Notes: a model not told the origin generated them from the sequence alone. A stretch of 32,845 bases of DNA from a bacterium (GCA_037143175.1 JBAWZF010000033.1:1-32845), one strand, 5' to 3'; positions 1-16,335 are shown, counted from the stretch's first letter. Program-made: numbers and translations.

Positions 1-1
1 C

Positions 2-97
2 ATCGACAAGCAATGCCTGACGGAAAAGGTCAAGAAGGTGGATCCGTCCGTGATGGCGGAAGTTGATAACGGACTCCGGCTTGTCTTAGCCATTTGA
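2..97 (+). CDS. MazF/PemK-type toxin, C-terminal fragment (cut by window edge)
   Basis: The reading frame is open from base 2 and ends at TGA 95-97, giving about 31 residues. It begins IDKQCLTEKV and ends LRLVLAI. This matches the usual end of MazF/PemK ribonuclease toxins: an 'IDK' strand, a helix with a 'M.EVD.aLr' pattern, and a short hydrophobic tail. The catalytic part lies off the left edge, so activity cannot be judged. The stop is followed within 10 bases by an attC-like site, as expected for a toxin-antitoxin cassette in an integron. The family call rests on a short C-terminus only. Confidence 0.55.
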   Translation: MDKQCLTEKVKKVDPSVMAEVDNGLRLVLAI

Positions 98-102
98 AAT
101 TC

Positions 103-163
103 GGCGAACCACACCTCGGAGTTTACGTCGCTGACGCGCCGAAACTCAAGGTGAACGTTCGGA
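103..163 (+). other. attC-like integron recombination site 1
   Basis: Outer arms CGAAC (105-109) and GTTCG (157-161) are complementary. Inside them CACCT pairs with AGGTG and GAGTTT pairs with AAACTC, around a 17-base loop. The unpaired spacers (CA against AAC) and extra bases on one arm (CG against A) are the layout of attC sites: R''-L''-L'-R' with extrahelical bases. The site near 1968 has the same architecture with compensating base changes. The R boxes depart from the RYYYAAC/GTTRRRY consensus but end in the required AAC and GTT. Confidence 0.65.
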
Positions 164-199
164 TAGAAGACAAACGGAAATGCCAGAAGGGGAATTGCG

Positions 200-1189
200 A
201 TGAACAAAACAATCAACGGTTTGATTTCCAGTAAAAGTGCGGCGCCATGCCTTTTCTATCCGGTTGTGAAAGAAATGGGGTTGTCCCTCATGGATGTGCT
301 CACAGACGGTAAAAAGCAAAAGGACGTCCTTTTGGAAATTGCGGATAAGTATCCAGTAAGCGCAGTTATTCGTATGACAGAACTCTGGTGTGAAGCCAAA
401 GCCTTCGGCATGGACTGCAAGATCGACGATGCGGATTTTCCAAAACTAGGAACAGTCTTGTATCCTGATATTGCCGCATTGGAATGCGCTGTCGTTCCGT
501 CGCCATTGAATGATACCCTTTTTCCTCTGATTGAAGCGGTCAGACTTGCAGTGCCATGCATGAAGAAACCGCTGATTGTCGGCGCGACTGGTCCATACAC
601 ATTGGGTTCCGTGCTCAATGGCTCCGAGGAGTTTATGGTGAATTGCATGACGGAACCTGACATCGTACATGCGTTCCTTGAGAAGACCACATCATTCCTG
701 ATTGCCTATGTGCTTGAATACAAGAAGGCAGGGGCAAGCGGTATTATTCTAGCTGAACCGTCCATTGCGATGATTTCACCCGACATGGCTGATGACCTAT
801 CACACCGTTATATTGAAAGGATCATTTCCGAAGTCCAAGACGATGCGTTCTCGGTTATTTATCACAATTGCGGAGCGGTCAATCCCCACGTAACATCCAT
901 TGTCAAACTTTCCGCACATGCATTCCATTTTGGAAGCGATGTTGATTTGGCGATCGCGCTGGATGGTTTGTCTTCCGACAGGATCGTCATGGGCAACATC
1001 GACCCGCAGCGTTTCCTTGCAGAGTCCCCTGAACAGATTGAGGCGGAAACCCGTGCATTGCTCTCCCGATATGCCCAATATAGCAATTATGTCTCTTCAA
1101 CAGGATGCGACTTGTCACCCAGCGCCAGGATTGATTCAATCTCCAGATTTTGCGTGACCGTAAAGCAGTGGGAAGGGAAAGACGGATGA
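200..1189 (+). CDS. UroD-family (MtaA/CmuA-type) methyltransferase
   Basis: This 329-residue protein belongs to the uroporphyrinogen decarboxylase superfamily. The branch is the corrinoid/coenzyme methyltransferases (MtaA, MtbA, CmuA type) rather than haem enzymes. It keeps the zinc-site pattern of that branch: His222-x-Cys224 in YHNCG and a distal Cys303 in STGCD. The N-terminus carries no obvious signal and length is normal for the family. A good ribosome site (AGAAGGGGAA) precedes ATG 200. It lies between two attC-like sites, so it appears to be carried as an integron cassette, which is unusual for a metabolic methyltransferase. Its stop overlaps (ATGA) the start of a truncated second cistron. 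The methyl donor and acceptor cannot be told from sequence. Confidence 0.85.
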   Translation: MNKTINGLISSKSAAPCLFYPVVKEMGLSLMDVLTDGKKQKDVLLEIADKYPVSAVIRMTELWCEAKAFGMDCKIDDADFPKLGTVLYPDIAALECAVVPSPLNDTLFPLIEAVRLAVPCMKKPLIVGATGPYTLGSVLNGSEEFMVNCMTEPDIVHAFLEKTTSFLIAYVLEYKKAGASGIILAEPSIAMISPDMADDLSHRYIERIISEVQDDAFSVIYHNCGAVNPHVTSIVKLSAHAFHFGSDVDLAIALDGLSSDRIVMGNIDPQRFLAESPEQIEAETRALLSRYAQYSNYVSSTGCDLSPSARIDSISRFCVTVKQWEGKDG

Positions 1190-1236
1190 CAAAGACACTT
1201 CAGGTATCATGTGTCCAGATGCACGGATGGGATTAA
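1186..1236 (+). pseudogene. Truncated start of a downstream cistron, possibly nitrilase-like
   Basis: ATG 1186 overlaps the methyltransferase stop by four bases (ATGA) and has a purine-rich ribosome site (GGGAAGGGAA). This is a normal translational-coupling arrangement. The frame gives only 16 residues, MTKTLQVSCVQMHGWD, before a stop. The beginning resembles the first strand of carbon-nitrogen hydrolases (..VAxVQM..), but that is a weak match. Up to the attC-like site at 1333 nothing recognisable follows. I read it as the broken end of an operon from which the methyltransferase was captured. Confidence 0.35.
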
Positions 1237-1332
1237 GGCGGCAGGGTTCGTCATTCGCCAATTGCTTCGAACAGGAGTTGGCTTGGAGAACGTACAAGCT
1301 CACAAGGGTCTTCGTTTGTGAGATAAGAAGAG

Positions 1333-1388
1333 GTCCAACCAACAAATGCCCGGTACGGCTTCGCCGCCCGAGATTTGCGCCGTTGGCC
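1333..1388 (+). other. attC-like integron recombination site 2
   Basis: GTCCAAC (1333-1339) fits the R'' consensus RYYYAAC exactly. It pairs through CCAAC with GTTGG in GTTGGCC (1382-1388). Inside, CAAAT pairs with ATTTG, CGG with CCG and CGGC with GCCG around a TTC loop, with unpaired bases between the blocks. The site falls after the methyltransferase cassette and before the relB/yafQ cassette. It is less regular than the other two sites but sits where an attC would be expected. Confidence 0.5.
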
Positions 1389-1436
1389 AGAAAGAATGTC
1401 TTGATAAATGTGTTGCGGATGTGACACACTGAAATC

Positions 1437-1694
1437 ATGAAAACAGCAGTTATCCATGCGAGAATAGAACCCCAGATAAAACGACAGGCTGAAGGCGTTC
1501 TGCATAATCTAGGAATCAGCCCGACAGAGGCGATTCGGATTTTCTACAGGCAGATCATGCTCAGGCATGGGCTCCCATTCGCCGTGGCCGTCCCCAACGA
1601 ATGCACGGCTGCCACCCTTGAAAAGAGCCGCCGCGGCGAGGATGTTCAGGAGTTTGAGTCATTGGATGCCATGTTTGAGAGCTGGAAGAAATGA
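1437..1694 (+). CDS. RelB/DinJ-family antitoxin
   Basis: This 85-residue protein has the N-terminal ribbon-helix-helix DNA-binding fold of RelB/DinJ antitoxins. A short strand (AVIHARIEPQIK) is followed by helices containing LGISPTEAIRIFYRQI. The acidic C-terminal half (EDVQEFESLDAMFESW) is the part that normally wraps the toxin. Its stop overlaps the start of the toxin gene by four bases, the usual antitoxin-first arrangement. DinJ homologues normally repress their own operon, but I did not identify an operator. No strong Shine-Dalgarno sequence is visible before ATG 1437. Confidence 0.88.
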   Translation: MKTAVIHARIEPQIKRQAEGVLHNLGISPTEAIRIFYRQIMLRHGLPFAVAVPNECTAATLEKSRRGEDVQEFESLDAMFESWKK

Positions 1695-1960
1695 AGAAGG
1701 TCTCCCAGACCACCCAGTTCGCCCGCGACATCAAGAAGATGAGGAAACGTGGGAAGGATCTGGCAAAACTCGAGGTGATTGTAAGGCTTCTGGCTACCGG
1801 ATCTCCGCTTGATCCCAAATACAGGGATCATCCTCTCGTCGGAGAATGGAAATCCTCGCATGACTGCCATGTGGAACCCGACTGGATCCTGATTTATACT
1901 GCCGATGATGATTCACTGCGGCTTGAACGAACTGGGACACATTCGGATCTGTTCAGATAA
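1691..1960 (+). CDS. YafQ-family mRNA interferase toxin
   Basis: This 89-residue protein lines up with YafQ of the RelE superfamily, a ribosome-dependent endoribonuclease. The family's conserved stretch is present: LVGEWKSSHDCHVEPDWILIY, then RTGTHSDLF at the end. It includes the His, Asp, Trp and final His positions used for catalysis in E. coli YafQ. Length is typical and the C-terminus is intact, so the toxin looks functional. It overlaps relB by ATGA and is followed seven bases later by attC-like site 3. This fits a stabilising toxin-antitoxin cassette in a chromosomal integron. Confidence 0.9.
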   Translation: MKKVSQTTQFARDIKKMRKRGKDLAKLEVIVRLLATGSPLDPKYRDHPLVGEWKSSHDCHVEPDWILIYTADDDSLRLERTGTHSDLFR

Positions 1961-1967
1961 AATAATC

Positions 1968-2029
1968 GGCCAACCACACCTCGCACTTTACAGCTCGTTC
2001 CTCGCCGAAAGTGAAGGTGACCGTTGGGG
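1968..2029 (+). other. attC-like integron recombination site 3
   Basis: Arms CCAAC (1970-1974) and GTTGG (2023-2027) are complementary. Inside, CACCT pairs with AGGTG and CACTTT with AAAGTG. Unpaired spacers are CA against ACC and CG against A. The block order and sizes match site 1 (103-163) almost base for base, while the inner stem has changed in a compensating way (GAGTTT/AAACTC to CACTTT/AAAGTG). Covariation of this sort is good evidence for a conserved folded recombination site. Confidence 0.68.
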
Positions 2030-2108
2030 AATGAAACTGAAGAGATGATGGATGGGAATTGATTCAATGTGGGAGGGGCACTCCGTGCCGCGAAGGGCAG
2101 GGTGGTGC

Positions 2109-2396
2109 TTGAAATGGACAAGAGTCGCCGCGACGGAGCGACTCAAGACGGAGCGAGGGCTCAGTTTTGAACAAATGGTGATGCATATTGAGGGGGGCGA
2201 TCTGCTGGCTGTGAATGAACACCCAAATCAGGGGCGATATCCCGGTCAGCAGATTCTGGTCGTTCGAGTTGGGGATTATGTGTACTTGGTGTCGTTTGTG
2301 GAATCGGCGGAAGGTCGCTTTCTCAAGACGATCATTCCAAGCCGAAAAGCAACACACCAGTTTTTGGGAGAATCCGATGAAGAAGACAAAACTTGA
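2109..2396 (+). CDS. BrnT-like toxin
   Basis: I place the start at TTG 2109, giving 95 residues from LKWTRVAATERLK. The upstream open frame beginning at ATG 2052 has no family resemblance, and AGGGTGG lies just before the TTG. The body matches small BrnT-like toxins of the RelE-like ribonuclease group: RGLSFEQMVMHIEGG, EHPNQGRYPGQQILVV, YVYLVSFVE and KTIIPSRKATHQFLG. The pair order is toxin first, with the antitoxin start overlapping the toxin end by 20 bases, which is normal for brnTA-type modules. Whether this subfamily cleaves RNA is known only by analogy with BrnT. Confidence 0.75.
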   Translation: MKWTRVAATERLKTERGLSFEQMVMHIEGGDLLAVNEHPNQGRYPGQQILVVRVGDYVYLVSFVESAEGRFLKTIIPSRKATHQFLGESDEEDKT

Positions 2397-2697
2397 TCCA
2401 GATGAGCAGGATATACTTGACTCTTTTGAGCGTGGCGAATGGAAGCCCGTAGCTAATCAAAAACAGGCGATTTCTCGCCATGTGCAGTACGCGAAGAACA
2501 CTTTGGCGAAAGACCAGAGAGTCAATATTCGAATATCATCAAAAGATCTGGAGCAACTTCAAACCATTGCGGTTGAAGACGGCTTGCCCTATCAAACACT
2601 CATGGCTAGTGTTTTACACCGATTCGTTTCCGGACGATTCGTGGAAATATCCAGCCGAACATCCGTTCGCAGCGTACGCGCTGCCGCGCGCCGCTGA
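2377..2697 (+). CDS. CopG/BrnA-type antitoxin
   Basis: Start ATG 2377 gives 106 residues beginning MKKTKLDPDEQDILDSFERG. The open frame upstream of this Met only shadows the toxin gene. The second half contains the ribbon-helix-helix unit of CopG-type antitoxins: VNIRISSKDLEQLQ followed by EDGLPYQTLMASVLHRFVSGRFVE. Family members usually end close to that 'GR.VE' point. Here a 16-residue basic tail (SSRTSVRSVRAAARR at the end) is added, which could be a read-through across a recombination junction. It should neutralise the overlapping upstream toxin and repress the operon. Confidence 0.8.
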   Translation: MKKTKLDPDEQDILDSFERGEWKPVANQKQAISRHVQYAKNTLAKDQRVNIRISSKDLEQLQTIAVEDGLPYQTLMASVLHRFVSGRFVEISSRTSVRSVRAAARR

Positions 2698-2702
2698 GAG
2701 AA

Positions 2703-3525: not shown

Positions 3526-4611
3526 TTACTGCCGGGTGGTCATGCGGCGGCCGCGTTCAAAGAAATATTGCAGGGTTTCGAATTTCACCTCGGGCGGAAT
3601 GGAATGGTCGGAATGGATGACGTAACTGCAGCCCATGGCCATCAACGGGGCTATGGTTCGATCCATTTCCGCATCAATGATGGTTCGATCGTTACTGATG
3701 AGGGCGCGGGCGTCAACGCCGCCGAAGAAGGCAATTTGTTTCCCGAATTGCTTTGCCAATCTGGGCATGTGCATTCCCGCCTTGACCTCCATTGCCTGAA
3801 GGCAGTTCATTCCGGCGCGGATCAGACCGGGAACCAGAGGTTCAACAAAACCGCAGGAATGTACGATGACTTTCAGGCCCTTCCCATGGAAAAAATCAAA
3901 TAGGCGCTTGTGGCCGGGTTCAACGATCTCTTCGTACATCTCGGGCGACATAAAGGGACGCTCCTTGAAGCCCATGTCCTCGTAAACGAAAGCCCCGTCC
4001 GGCAGCCCTTCTTCGGTGAAGAGAATCTCCAGGTGGCGTATGGTCATGTCGACATAGGTCATGACCATGTCTTTGACCCAGTCCGGATCCAGAGCCATGC
4101 CGACTAGCATGTGTTCGTGTCCACAGAGTGGGTGCATCTGTTCGAATGGGCCAACACCGGACCAACAGAAAAATTCCTGATTTTGGTCGGCCTGAGCGCG
4201 CGCCTTCCGATAATCAGCGACATTGATGCGGCGCCAGTCGGTCTTGAGAAGGTGAGGTTTGGCTATTTCCTCCCACGCGGGACGTTCAGTTACGCTGAAG
4301 TTGACGTGTTCAGGGGTGGTGGAGTGCTTTTTGTGGCGGCGGAGCTGAGCTCCATTTCCATCAAGAATCAATTGGGTATCCTCCGATTCCTCCAGTACAA
4401 CGGGCTTGAAATCGAGGTCAACGGTATTATTGGGCCAGCCGCCCATGCGCAAGTCGAGTTTAAATTGCTCTACGAAGTCTCCCGTGAGCAGGCCGGCGTC
4501 CTGCCATTGTTGATATGTCTCAGGCCACAGATCCTCGTGACAGGGACTATGGTCAACGGGTTTAAGGTCGAGGGTGTTGTTGAATCGCTCTTTGCCTGTC
4601 ATGGGGCTCAT
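3526..4611 (-). CDS. UroD-family methyltransferase-like protein
   Basis: I choose the Met at 4611 (MSPMTGKERFNNTL) because GGAG lies six bases upstream; Met 4644 and 4617 are also open. The 361-residue product is a member of the uroporphyrinogen decarboxylase superfamily. VIVHSCGFVEPL carries the His-x-Cys pattern, but the distal part reads YVIHSDHSIPPEV instead of a second Cys motif. This branch is common in Lentisphaerae/Verrucomicrobia-type genomes and is not functionally assigned as far as I know. It is divergent from an AraC regulator 147 bases away, which probably controls it. A methyl-transfer role is inferred from the fold and neighbourhood only. Confidence 0.85.
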   Translation of the reverse strand: MSPMTGKERFNNTLDLKPVDHSPCHEDLWPETYQQWQDAGLLTGDFVEQFKLDLRMGGWPNNTVDLDFKPVVLEESEDTQLILDGNGAQLRRHKKHSTTPEHVNFSVTERPAWEEIAKPHLLKTDWRRINVADYRKARAQADQNQEFFCWSGVGPFEQMHPLCGHEHMLVGMALDPDWVKDMVMTYVDMTIRHLEILFTEEGLPDGAFVYEDMGFKERPFMSPEMYEEIVEPGHKRLFDFFHGKGLKVIVHSCGFVEPLVPGLIRAGMNCLQAMEVKAGMHMPRLAKQFGKQIAFFGGVDARALISNDRTIIDAEMDRTIAPLMAMGCSYVIHSDHSIPPEVKFETLQYFFERGRRMTTRQ

Positions 4612-4757
4612 GGTCATCTCCGATTTGTATTTTAAAAATATCACATTTCATCTTCAAGAAATAACCCTTAGTATTTGATAAATAATTGAAAATGAAATGG
4701 ATGTTTCAGGCATATATTTGTAAGAATACGATAATTCAATAACAAAGGAGTCGGGAG

Positions 4758-7273: not shown

Positions 7274-8335
7274 ATGAATCGTCAGTATTTCATTGATTTG
7301 ACCCGGAAAGATGTGCGAGTGCCCATTGGCGTAGATATGATTCTGCATCAATACCCTGATGTGGATGCCATTCTTGACAATGGGGAGCGGATGGGCCAAG
7401 TGCTGCTGGAGGCCGCGCGGTTCTATAACAGCCCGATCGTGATGCCCCACATGGATCTGATGCTGGAGAAAGACCATCTCCTGTCCCTGATGGGTATCCC
7501 CGCAGTGGATCGTCCGGCATATCATTTCCACGGTTGTCCATCGGATGACATGGTGAGTGAATTCAAGTCGAAGATAAAAGGCCCTCTTGGCAGGAGGATG
7601 GAGGCCCGGAATGATGCCATCCGGTATGTGGCGACCCATTCGACGCTCTTACCCATGGGAATTTCCATCGGCCCTTTTTCGTTGATGACCAAACTGTTGG
7701 CTGATCCCATCACACCTATTTTTCTTCATGGTATGGGCATTACCGGCGACGAGGATTCGGAAGTCAGGGCTGTAGAGATTTGCCTGGACTTGGCGCTGGC
7801 GGTGGTTTTGCGTGCCATTGAATCGCAACTGGATGCTGGTGCCCAGATCATCATCGTTGCCGAACCAGCCGCCAATTCCGTTTACCTCTCACCCAAACAG
7901 ATGGAGGAGGGGGCTGATATCTTTGACCGGTTTGTGCTGGCCCAGAATGCGGTCATGCGCAAGCTCGTGGCTGATCGCGGGGCGGCCTTGATTTTTCATG
8001 ATTGTGGTGCACTTACGCCCGGGATGATTCGTAAACTCGACACTCTTCGCCCAGAGGTTTTCAGTTTTGGTAGCCCCGTGAATTTATGGGAGGCGGCGGA
8101 CCTTGTATCTAAGGACACAGTTCTCTATGGGAATCTTCCCTCCAAACGGTTTATGTCCGACTCCCTGATCACGGTTGAACAGGTGAAGGAGATGTCCTGT
8201 GACCTGGCGGCACGGATGCGGGAAAAGAACCATCCTTTCATGCTGGGAACGGAATGCGACGTGCTTTGTGTTCATGAACATAAAGAGGTGATTGCACGCA
8301 AGGTGGAAGCCTTCATGACCTGTTCGTTACAGTAA
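7274..8335 (+). CDS. UroD-family corrinoid-linked methyltransferase (MtaA/MtbA-like)
   Basis: This 353-residue enzyme is of the MtaA/MtbA/CmuA type within the UroD superfamily. It keeps His242-x-Cys244 (FHDCG) and Cys328 (GTECD), the likely zinc ligands that activate the methyl-accepting thiol or other acceptor. Substrate-pocket segments such as LMGIPAVDRPAYHF are typical. It is the first full-length gene of a tight plus-strand operon with an OFA transporter and a MetF-MetV fusion. The methyl group is therefore most plausibly passed toward tetrahydrofolate, but this is inference. An AGGATG ribosome site lies nine bases before ATG 7274. The adjacent PocR/AraC gene is its probable regulator. 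Confidence 0.88.
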   Translation: MNRQYFIDLTRKDVRVPIGVDMILHQYPDVDAILDNGERMGQVLLEAARFYNSPIVMPHMDLMLEKDHLLSLMGIPAVDRPAYHFHGCPSDDMVSEFKSKIKGPLGRRMEARNDAIRYVATHSTLLPMGISIGPFSLMTKLLADPITPIFLHGMGITGDEDSEVRAVEICLDLALAVVLRAIESQLDAGAQIIIVAEPAANSVYLSPKQMEEGADIFDRFVLAQNAVMRKLVADRGAALIFHDCGALTPGMIRKLDTLRPEVFSFGSPVNLWEAADLVSKDTVLYGNLPSKRFMSDSLITVEQVKEMSCDLAARMREKNHPFMLGTECDVLCVHEHKEVIARKVEAFMTCSLQ

Positions 8336-11219: not shown

Positions 11220-11552
11220 ATCCGTTCAGGCTGTCGACCGTGCGGCCAATCAAGTCGAGTTCCACAGTGCGGAACAGATCCCGGGAAGATCAGACCATGA
11301 TCGGATTTCCGGTGGATGGCATTGGGTGAATTCGTTAAGAGAACCTATAGTTTCCACCGAAAGGTCTCGGTTGTCCCTTTATCCCAGCCATCCCACACAT
11401 GACTTGCGCCAGCAGGTGGCAAGGAAGCGGTAAGGCGGGATGGCAGTCGGAGCGGTTCGTAATAGGGGAGTAACCGTCGTATGACAAAAGCATAAATGGC
11501 ATCGCCGCTTCTCTTTTATTCCTTTCTGCAACGATCAACTTGATGACTCAAT
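11220..11552. other. Intergenic stretch after metF; structured, no firm gene
   Basis: No convincing gene is present on either strand. GCCATCCC (11387-11394) pairs with GGGATGGC (11437-11444) and encloses a smaller GCCA/TGGC hairpin, so an RNA from either strand would fold here. On the minus strand, directly downstream of a cobalamin riboswitch, a 55-codon frame (11335-11502) starts at an ATG with GAGAAG upstream. Its product (begins MPFMLLSYDGY) has no family resemblance or membrane segment. I see no intrinsic terminator between the riboswitch and the 3' end of metF. Confidence 0.4.
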
Positions 11553-11691
11553 ATGCGGGTCGGTATTCTGGTTTCCTGATCAACCTACTGATCGTGCCTT
11601 CCCATCTTACGACAGTGGCCTAAACGATGTTCGTTCCCGGTTACAGCGGCGGGACCGCGACGGATTTACACCGTCTTCCCGACAAACGCAT
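11553..11691 (-). promoter_or_regulatory. Cobalamin riboswitch, copy 1 (no clear downstream gene)
   Basis: Read on the minus strand, this holds the standard core of a B12 riboswitch. It has GACGGTGTAAATCCGTC, GCGGTCCCGCCGCTGTAACC, then GCCACTG and GGGAAGGC. The B12-box region reads AGGAAACCAGAATACCGACC. Paired ends (ATGCG/CGCAT) close it. It is nearly the same as copy 2 at 16116-16254. The transcript would run leftwards into a stretch without a recognisable gene and then antisense to metF. The stretch equivalent to the copy-2 -10 box (TATAAT) is not conserved here, so it may be a relic. Confidence 0.88.
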
Positions 11692-11762
11692 TGCAATTAC
11701 GTTACAATTATTATGTCAGGCTGGAGGAAAGTACAAGGTGAGCATTGGGTTTTTATCACAGT

Positions 11763-16048: not shown

Positions 16049-16115
16049 GATATTTCATCCCCAAACAGAGTTTCACTTTTAACCCCTCTCCACGGGGGTT
16101 AAGTCATGATTCACG

Positions 16116-16254
16116 ATGCGGGTCGGTATTCTGGTTTCCGGATCACTCTACTGATCGTGCCTTCCCGTATTTCGACAGTGGCCTGAACGATGTTCGTCCC
16201 CGGTTACAGCGGCGGGACCACGACGGATTCACACCGTCTTCCCGACAACCGCAT
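16116..16254 (-). promoter_or_regulatory. Cobalamin riboswitch, copy 2 (controls cob genes)
   Basis: On the minus strand this has GACGGTGTGAATCCGTC, GGTCCCGCCGCTGTAACC, GCCACTG, GGGAAGGC and the GGAAACCAGAATACCGACC box, closed by ATGCGG/CCGCAT ends. A TATAAT -10 box lies upstream at 16312-16307. Downstream come a hairpin and an intrinsic terminator, then the cobyric acid synthase fusion and cbiB. High adenosylcobalamin should therefore shut off cobalamin synthesis by premature termination. Confidence 0.95.
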
Positions 16255-16335
16255 TACAACTACAGCGGGAACAATATGTCAGGCAGGTGGAAAGCACAAG
16301 ATGAGAATTATATCTTACCCAGCGGAGCATGGTGA

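Follow-up and report, generated by a model that had tools for sequence, protein, structure and literature searches.

The window analysed here (32,845 nucleotides) is the entire contig C33 of a 3.3-Mb bacterial genome, fragmented into 107 contigs. Its first 2,697 positions carry plus-strand gene cassettes separated by three attC sites (Table 1): the 3′ part of a MazEF-type cassette, a cassette with a gene of the URO-D superfamily, a complete RelB/YafQ toxin-antitoxin cassette and, at the end, a degraded gene-less palindromic cassette overlapped by a toxin-antitoxin-like gene pair.

Table 1. Cassettes, genes and attC sites at the left end of the window
Feature	Position	Strand	Details
MazEF-type cassette, 3′ part	1–157	+	Cut by contig start; MazF tail at 2–97
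attC site 1	103–163	+	R″ GGCGAAC, R′ GTTCGGA; crossover expected after G157
URO-D superfamily gene, MtaA/MtbA-like, 329 aa	200–1189	+	PF01208, E 6e-48
attC site 2	1333–1388	+	R″ GTCCAAC, R′ GTTGGCC; weakest of the three
RelB/YafQ toxin-antitoxin cassette, complete	1382–2025	+	Between the GTT crossovers of sites 2 and 3
RelB/DinJ antitoxin gene	1437–1694	+	TIGR02384, 67.9 bits (cut-off 45.65); PF04221
YafQ toxin gene	1691–1960	+	TIGR00053, 93.1 bits (cut-off 87.25); PF15738, E 2e-33
attC site 3	1968–2029	+	R″ GGCCAAC, R′ GTTGGGG
Terminal cassette start, degraded gene-less palindromic cassette	2030–2140	+	86% to positions 1–111 of the 156-bp body
Toxin-like ORF (2052–2396) and CopG-type antitoxin-like ORF	2052–2697	+	PF12441 CopG_antitoxin, 21.3 bits (under cut-off 28)

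The name MazF comes from a reading of the sequence. The tail peptide, IDKQCLTEKVKKVDPSVMAEVDNGLRLVLAI, matches the C terminus of a PemK/MazF-like ORF that is intact in the related genome G005 (L110, 747–1091), where an antitoxin-like ORF (517–753) precedes it, and the cassette DNA is 87–88% identical to cassettes in G005 and in a further relative, G007. The RelB/DinJ and YafQ genes overlap and both exceed the curated cut-offs of their families, which identifies them as a predicted RelB/YafQ pair. For the last pair, the toxin call comes from reading the translation of ORF 2052–2396, which has no family match and whose N terminus overlaps the gene-less repeat.

The gene between sites 1 and 2 encodes a protein whose best NCBIfam match, PRK06252 (E 3e-31), falls far under its cut-off, and it also misses the curated MtaA and MtbA cut-offs (108.6 and 79.9 bits versus 244 and 235). 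Judged by these matches, the protein can be assigned to the URO-D superfamily only and is probably MtaA/MtbA-like, of the methylcobamide methyltransferase type. Its PDB relatives include HemE and methylcobalamin:CoM methyltransferase; eight other genomes of the taxonomic family hold no relative at E ≤ 1e-30. Non-cassette URO-D genes lie nearby (window 3526–4644 and 7274–8335), and the window also contains two cobalamin riboswitches (11541–11724 and 16104–16267), in a region with genes for CobD/CbiB, a CobQ/CbiA-type protein, a PocR-like regulator, MTHFR and URO-D.

The earlier note on this DNA had placed three folded attC sites here, each following a plus-strand cassette. Their coordinates and anatomy were as it described, and all three lie on the plus strand 3′ of plus-strand genes. 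Each site has the R″/R′ pair (AAC...GTT), a spacer and an L-box stem, and an extra base on its 3′ side makes it asymmetric. The block order (R, 2 nt, CACCT, a 2-nt CG, inner stem) is common to sites 1 and 3, and two compensated pairs distinguish the inner stem of the one (GAGTTT/AAACTC) from that of the other (CACTTT/AAAGTG), as the note had seen. Folding energy alone is weak evidence, especially for sites 2 and 3, because their z scores are unremarkable (−3.1, −1.7 and −1.3 for sites 1, 2 and 3). In a geometric scan the sites scored 14.4, 11.1 and 14.4; shuffled windows gave about 0.02 expected matches at ≥14 and 0.33 at ≥11, so site 2 needs the support of covariance models.

Two such models were built from sites outside the window, R1 from ten sites on contigs C22 and C45 and R2 from thirteen sites on C59; one long attC that MAFFT misaligned was left out. 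The R1 training set includes a C45 site near-identical to window site 1, and the R2 set does not. Within the 32.8-kb window, R1 matched exactly the three proposed sites at E ≤ 5 (73.3 bits, E 4.8e-16; 25.5 bits, E 2.2e-4; 47.0 bits, E 1.3e-9, for sites 1 to 3), and R2, at E up to 5, returned the same three and no others (64.1 bits, E 1.3e-14; 33.3 bits, E 1.2e-6; 48.3 bits, E 1.6e-10). We conclude that the three window sites are genuine attC sites.

A search of the whole genome with R1 gave 44 matches at E ≤ 1, and searching the array contigs directly brought the tally to about 48 distinct attC sites. They are concentrated on C59 (26, on a 16-kb contig), C22 (9), C45 (5) and C33 (3), with one or two each on C12, C43, C9, C29, C42 and C60. 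The alignment behind these 48 sites has 50 rows, one being a second-strand match and one a weak match (E 0.6). Over the 50 rows, stem changes on both sides occupied 252 cells versus 122 in shuffles, and the covariation score was 0.559 versus at most 0.103 for slid partners; both counts lean towards structure because the alignment was fitted to structure. Across the genome, the sites have the conserved structure and the R″/R′ AAC...GTT core of attC. One lone match (G000:C29:156–214) lies near a tRNA-like sequence and is followed by an apparent antitoxin gene start.

A cassette that inserts into an array brings with it the bases after the G of GTT, so that the R′ of one attC is complementary to the R″ of the next. 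Among 38 adjacent attC pairs, the 7-base R′ was the exact reverse complement of the next R″ in 25, and the four variable bases matched at a mean of 3.29 of 4, versus 1.90 after shuffling (0 of 10,000 shuffles did as well). The set includes one pair that is an artefact of a contig edge and lowers the agreement. Within the window, the R′ of site 2 (GTTGGCC) and the R″ of site 3 (GGCCAAC) are exact complements. The R′ of site 1 (GTTCGGA) and the R″ of site 2 (GTCCAAC) mismatch, agreeing at one of the four variable bases. With its ends thus unmatched, the URO-D cassette between sites 1 and 2 may have arisen by fusion of two cassettes, or an attC may have dropped out of it. A collapsed attC near 1265 (TTCGAAC-AGGA-GTTGGCT), considered as an explanation of this mismatch, is a by-eye reading that we do not claim.

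The genome encodes an integron integrase, on a contig other than the window's own: C22:39615–40574 matches TIGR02249 at 387.1 bits (cut-off 265), within an intact ORF of 438 aa (L018:2604–3920). No match exceeded the cut-off in 14 control genomes. The nine C22 attC sites lie downstream of intI in a single orientation, divergent from it, and run off the contig end; the first cassette sites are about 570 bases from the intI start codon. Divergence of the cassettes from intI is the arrangement of other integrons. Between intI and the array lies a candidate attI core, GTTCCCC (L018:4301), three of whose four variable bases match the R″ of the first cassette. On the other side of intI, away from the array, R2 found no sites within the initial 39.8 kb of C22.

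The nearest named integrases come from a Kiritimatiellaeota MAG (61% identity) and from Desulfobulbales (about 49–58%); the former is consistent with a host from the PVC group, as the earlier note had supposed. At its N terminus the C22 integrase extends about 115 residues past the family model, a stretch over which the Desulfobulbales relatives align as well. Fragments matching the integrase model occur at G000:C60:7686–7875 and G000:C22:22853–23002, one of them directly adjoining an attC match, and are possibly remnants of older integrons.

Cassettes of the window recur in related genomes in other surroundings. The RelB/YafQ cassette is found on contig C12 of G005 (88% identity over window 1381–2028) and on contig C534 of G007 (89% over 1381–1976). 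In each case the homology begins at GTT, and the left attC differs in each of the three genomes. Cassette order differs as well: in G007, RelB/YafQ is followed directly by MazF, and in the window the order is MazF, URO-D, RelB/YafQ. These comparisons indicate that cassettes have been shuffled between related genomes. An empty-site comparison with G005 yielded a match for a single flanking gene.

Integrase genes are also present in related genomes. By the search tool's own tally, an integrase passes the cut-off in six of the nine genomes of the taxonomic family. R1 matches at E ≤ 0.01 occur in every one of the nine, in a scan run without an unrelated-genome control and in which isolated matches need care. 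At the level of the order, 10 of 17 genomes have an integrase, some with four integron integrase genes over the family cut-off in a single genome (G005, G016).

We conclude that positions 1–2,697 almost certainly form the distal stretch of a cassette array in a chromosomal integron, or else a small group of attC sites that descends from such an array. The attC family, the intact integrase, the boundary rule and the cassettes shuffled with exact breakpoints in relatives carry this conclusion. The earlier note had proposed an integron, a reading to be abandoned if no attC model matched and neither intI nor related palindromes were present; each of these was looked for and found. Its description of the array as one of toxin-antitoxin genes holds for RelB/YafQ and for many cassettes elsewhere, and fails for the cassette between sites 1 and 2, whose gene is URO-D/MtaA-like. 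Toxin-antitoxin cassettes are abundant across the arrays of the genome, which carry PIN, PemK, ParE, HicB, RelB/YafQ, HNH endonuclease and DUF4160/DUF2442 genes and genes for small unknown proteins. Defence-system models gave no matches to the cassette genes tested.

In the proposed mechanism, a cassette would pair one attC with either a single gene or two genes, and the attC would fold as a single strand. The C22 integrase is predicted to cut and join between the G and the TT of GTT, and we infer that it acts on the three window sites. Cassettes would leave as circles and reinsert at attI (candidate GTTCCCC on C22) or at another attC, and the array would store mainly toxin-antitoxin pairs and small proteins of unknown function. 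The toxin-antitoxin pairs presumably stabilise the array. The integron is likely sedentary, given its roughly 48 sites of a single family and their conservation across the taxonomic family; its array is assembled in several pieces.

C33 may close the array at its distal end, or it may be a cluster of its own without an integrase. We infer that it is, or was, joined to the C22 array. No contig-end overlap of C33 with C22, C59 or C45 was found. C59 breaks off in a gene-less cassette, and the attC of that cassette opens C45; this arrangement suggests that the two contigs are neighbours. Neither R1 nor R2 matched an attC 3′ of the terminal toxin-antitoxin-like pair in the rest of the window; the array therefore ends there. 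The missing intI on C33 is uninformative because the contig is cut inside a cassette.

The strongest alternative, to which we give somewhat less than an even chance, is that the C33 cluster is an independent CALIN and does not terminate the C22 array; it would be what remains of an old array or the product of off-target insertion. C33, C45, C12, C43 and C9 each seem to exit from an attC cluster into other sequence, which is too many exits for one array. The last cassette of the window lacks an attC, and in G005 the attC cluster lies inside C12 (127 kb), where integrase-like matches are weak only. Against this, the contig break falls inside a cassette, and more sites probably lie to the left. 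Like a CALIN, C33 as assembled has at least two attC and no intI; unlike one, it is cut inside a cassette on the array side. Assemblies are known to break at repeats rich in attC, which raises the number of CALINs counted (PMC9024848).

It is very improbable that the contig was mis-binned and the array belongs to another organism in the sample: the assembly is fragmented, and arrays and repeats bin poorly, but the same cassettes and attC family occur in other genomes of the genus and family, and C33 continues into 30 kb of other genes, among them one with 78% identity to a G005 gene. Less probable still are ordinary intergenic palindromes (REP elements, terminators) unrelated to an integron, a reading favoured by the unremarkable folding of sites 2 and 3 and by the dispersed palindromic repeats of the genome but ruled out by the covariance matches, the boundary rule, the GTT breakpoints and the presence of the same site family beside the genome's integrase, with neither model matching anything else in the window and R2 nothing in the first 39.8 kb of C22.

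The integron interpreted here is an example of a well-known gene-capture system and not a new kind. Sedentary chromosomal integrons, such as the Vibrio superintegron and those of Xanthomonas, Planctomycetota and Verrucomicrobiota, likewise combine an integrase divergent from a run of tens of cassettes with attC sites that form one family; toxin-antitoxin cassettes are numerous in them too, and gene-less ones occur. Unlike theirs, the present integrase is nearest to those of the Kiritimatiellaeota MAG and Desulfobulbales and bears the N-terminal extension. The predicted toxin-antitoxin pair of the window resembles DinJ/RelB-YafQ type II systems in that its two genes overlap and each exceeds its NCBIfam cut-off; it differs in being carried as an integron cassette. 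Integrons have already been reported in Verrucomicrobiota and Planctomycetota (PMC8618304; PMC2426708), and arrays of this sort are known to contain toxin-antitoxin cassettes as well as gene-less ones (PMC8618304; PMC11014356). In the library searched, no paper on a Kiritimatiellota integron came up; the papers matched, judged by title and abstract, only mention both words. The present data document an integron of about 48 attC sites, with moved cassettes, in a lineage that is probably PVC and in which few integrons have been described; other genomes of the order hold additional integrase copies. Models R1 and R2 could help to assign environmental cassettes to this lineage.

The 156-bp gene-less palindromic cassette is a testable oddity. 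Five intact copies occur on C22 and C59 (L018:7585–7740; L089, at G000:C59:11549, 9976, 8016 and 3672). Its palindrome folds at −34.5 kcal/mol (z −5.8), parts of it are also found outside the arrays, and similar stretches exist in relatives. One speculative reading, which we hold to be rather unlikely, is that REP-like palindromic repeats became integron cassettes and spread gene-less through the arrays, shaping them, and that the terminal repeat of the window became joined to a toxin gene and closed off the array. If so, the gene-less repeats could act as a promoter, a terminator or a recombination hot spot. The genome also holds four matches to a Y1-type transposase. Another gene-less cassette, which contains a long hairpin (TTTGAACAGAAG ... 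CTTCTGTTTAAA), lies directly 3′ of the candidate attI (L018:4301–4550) and recurs at array breaks, including the array-proximal end of L089.
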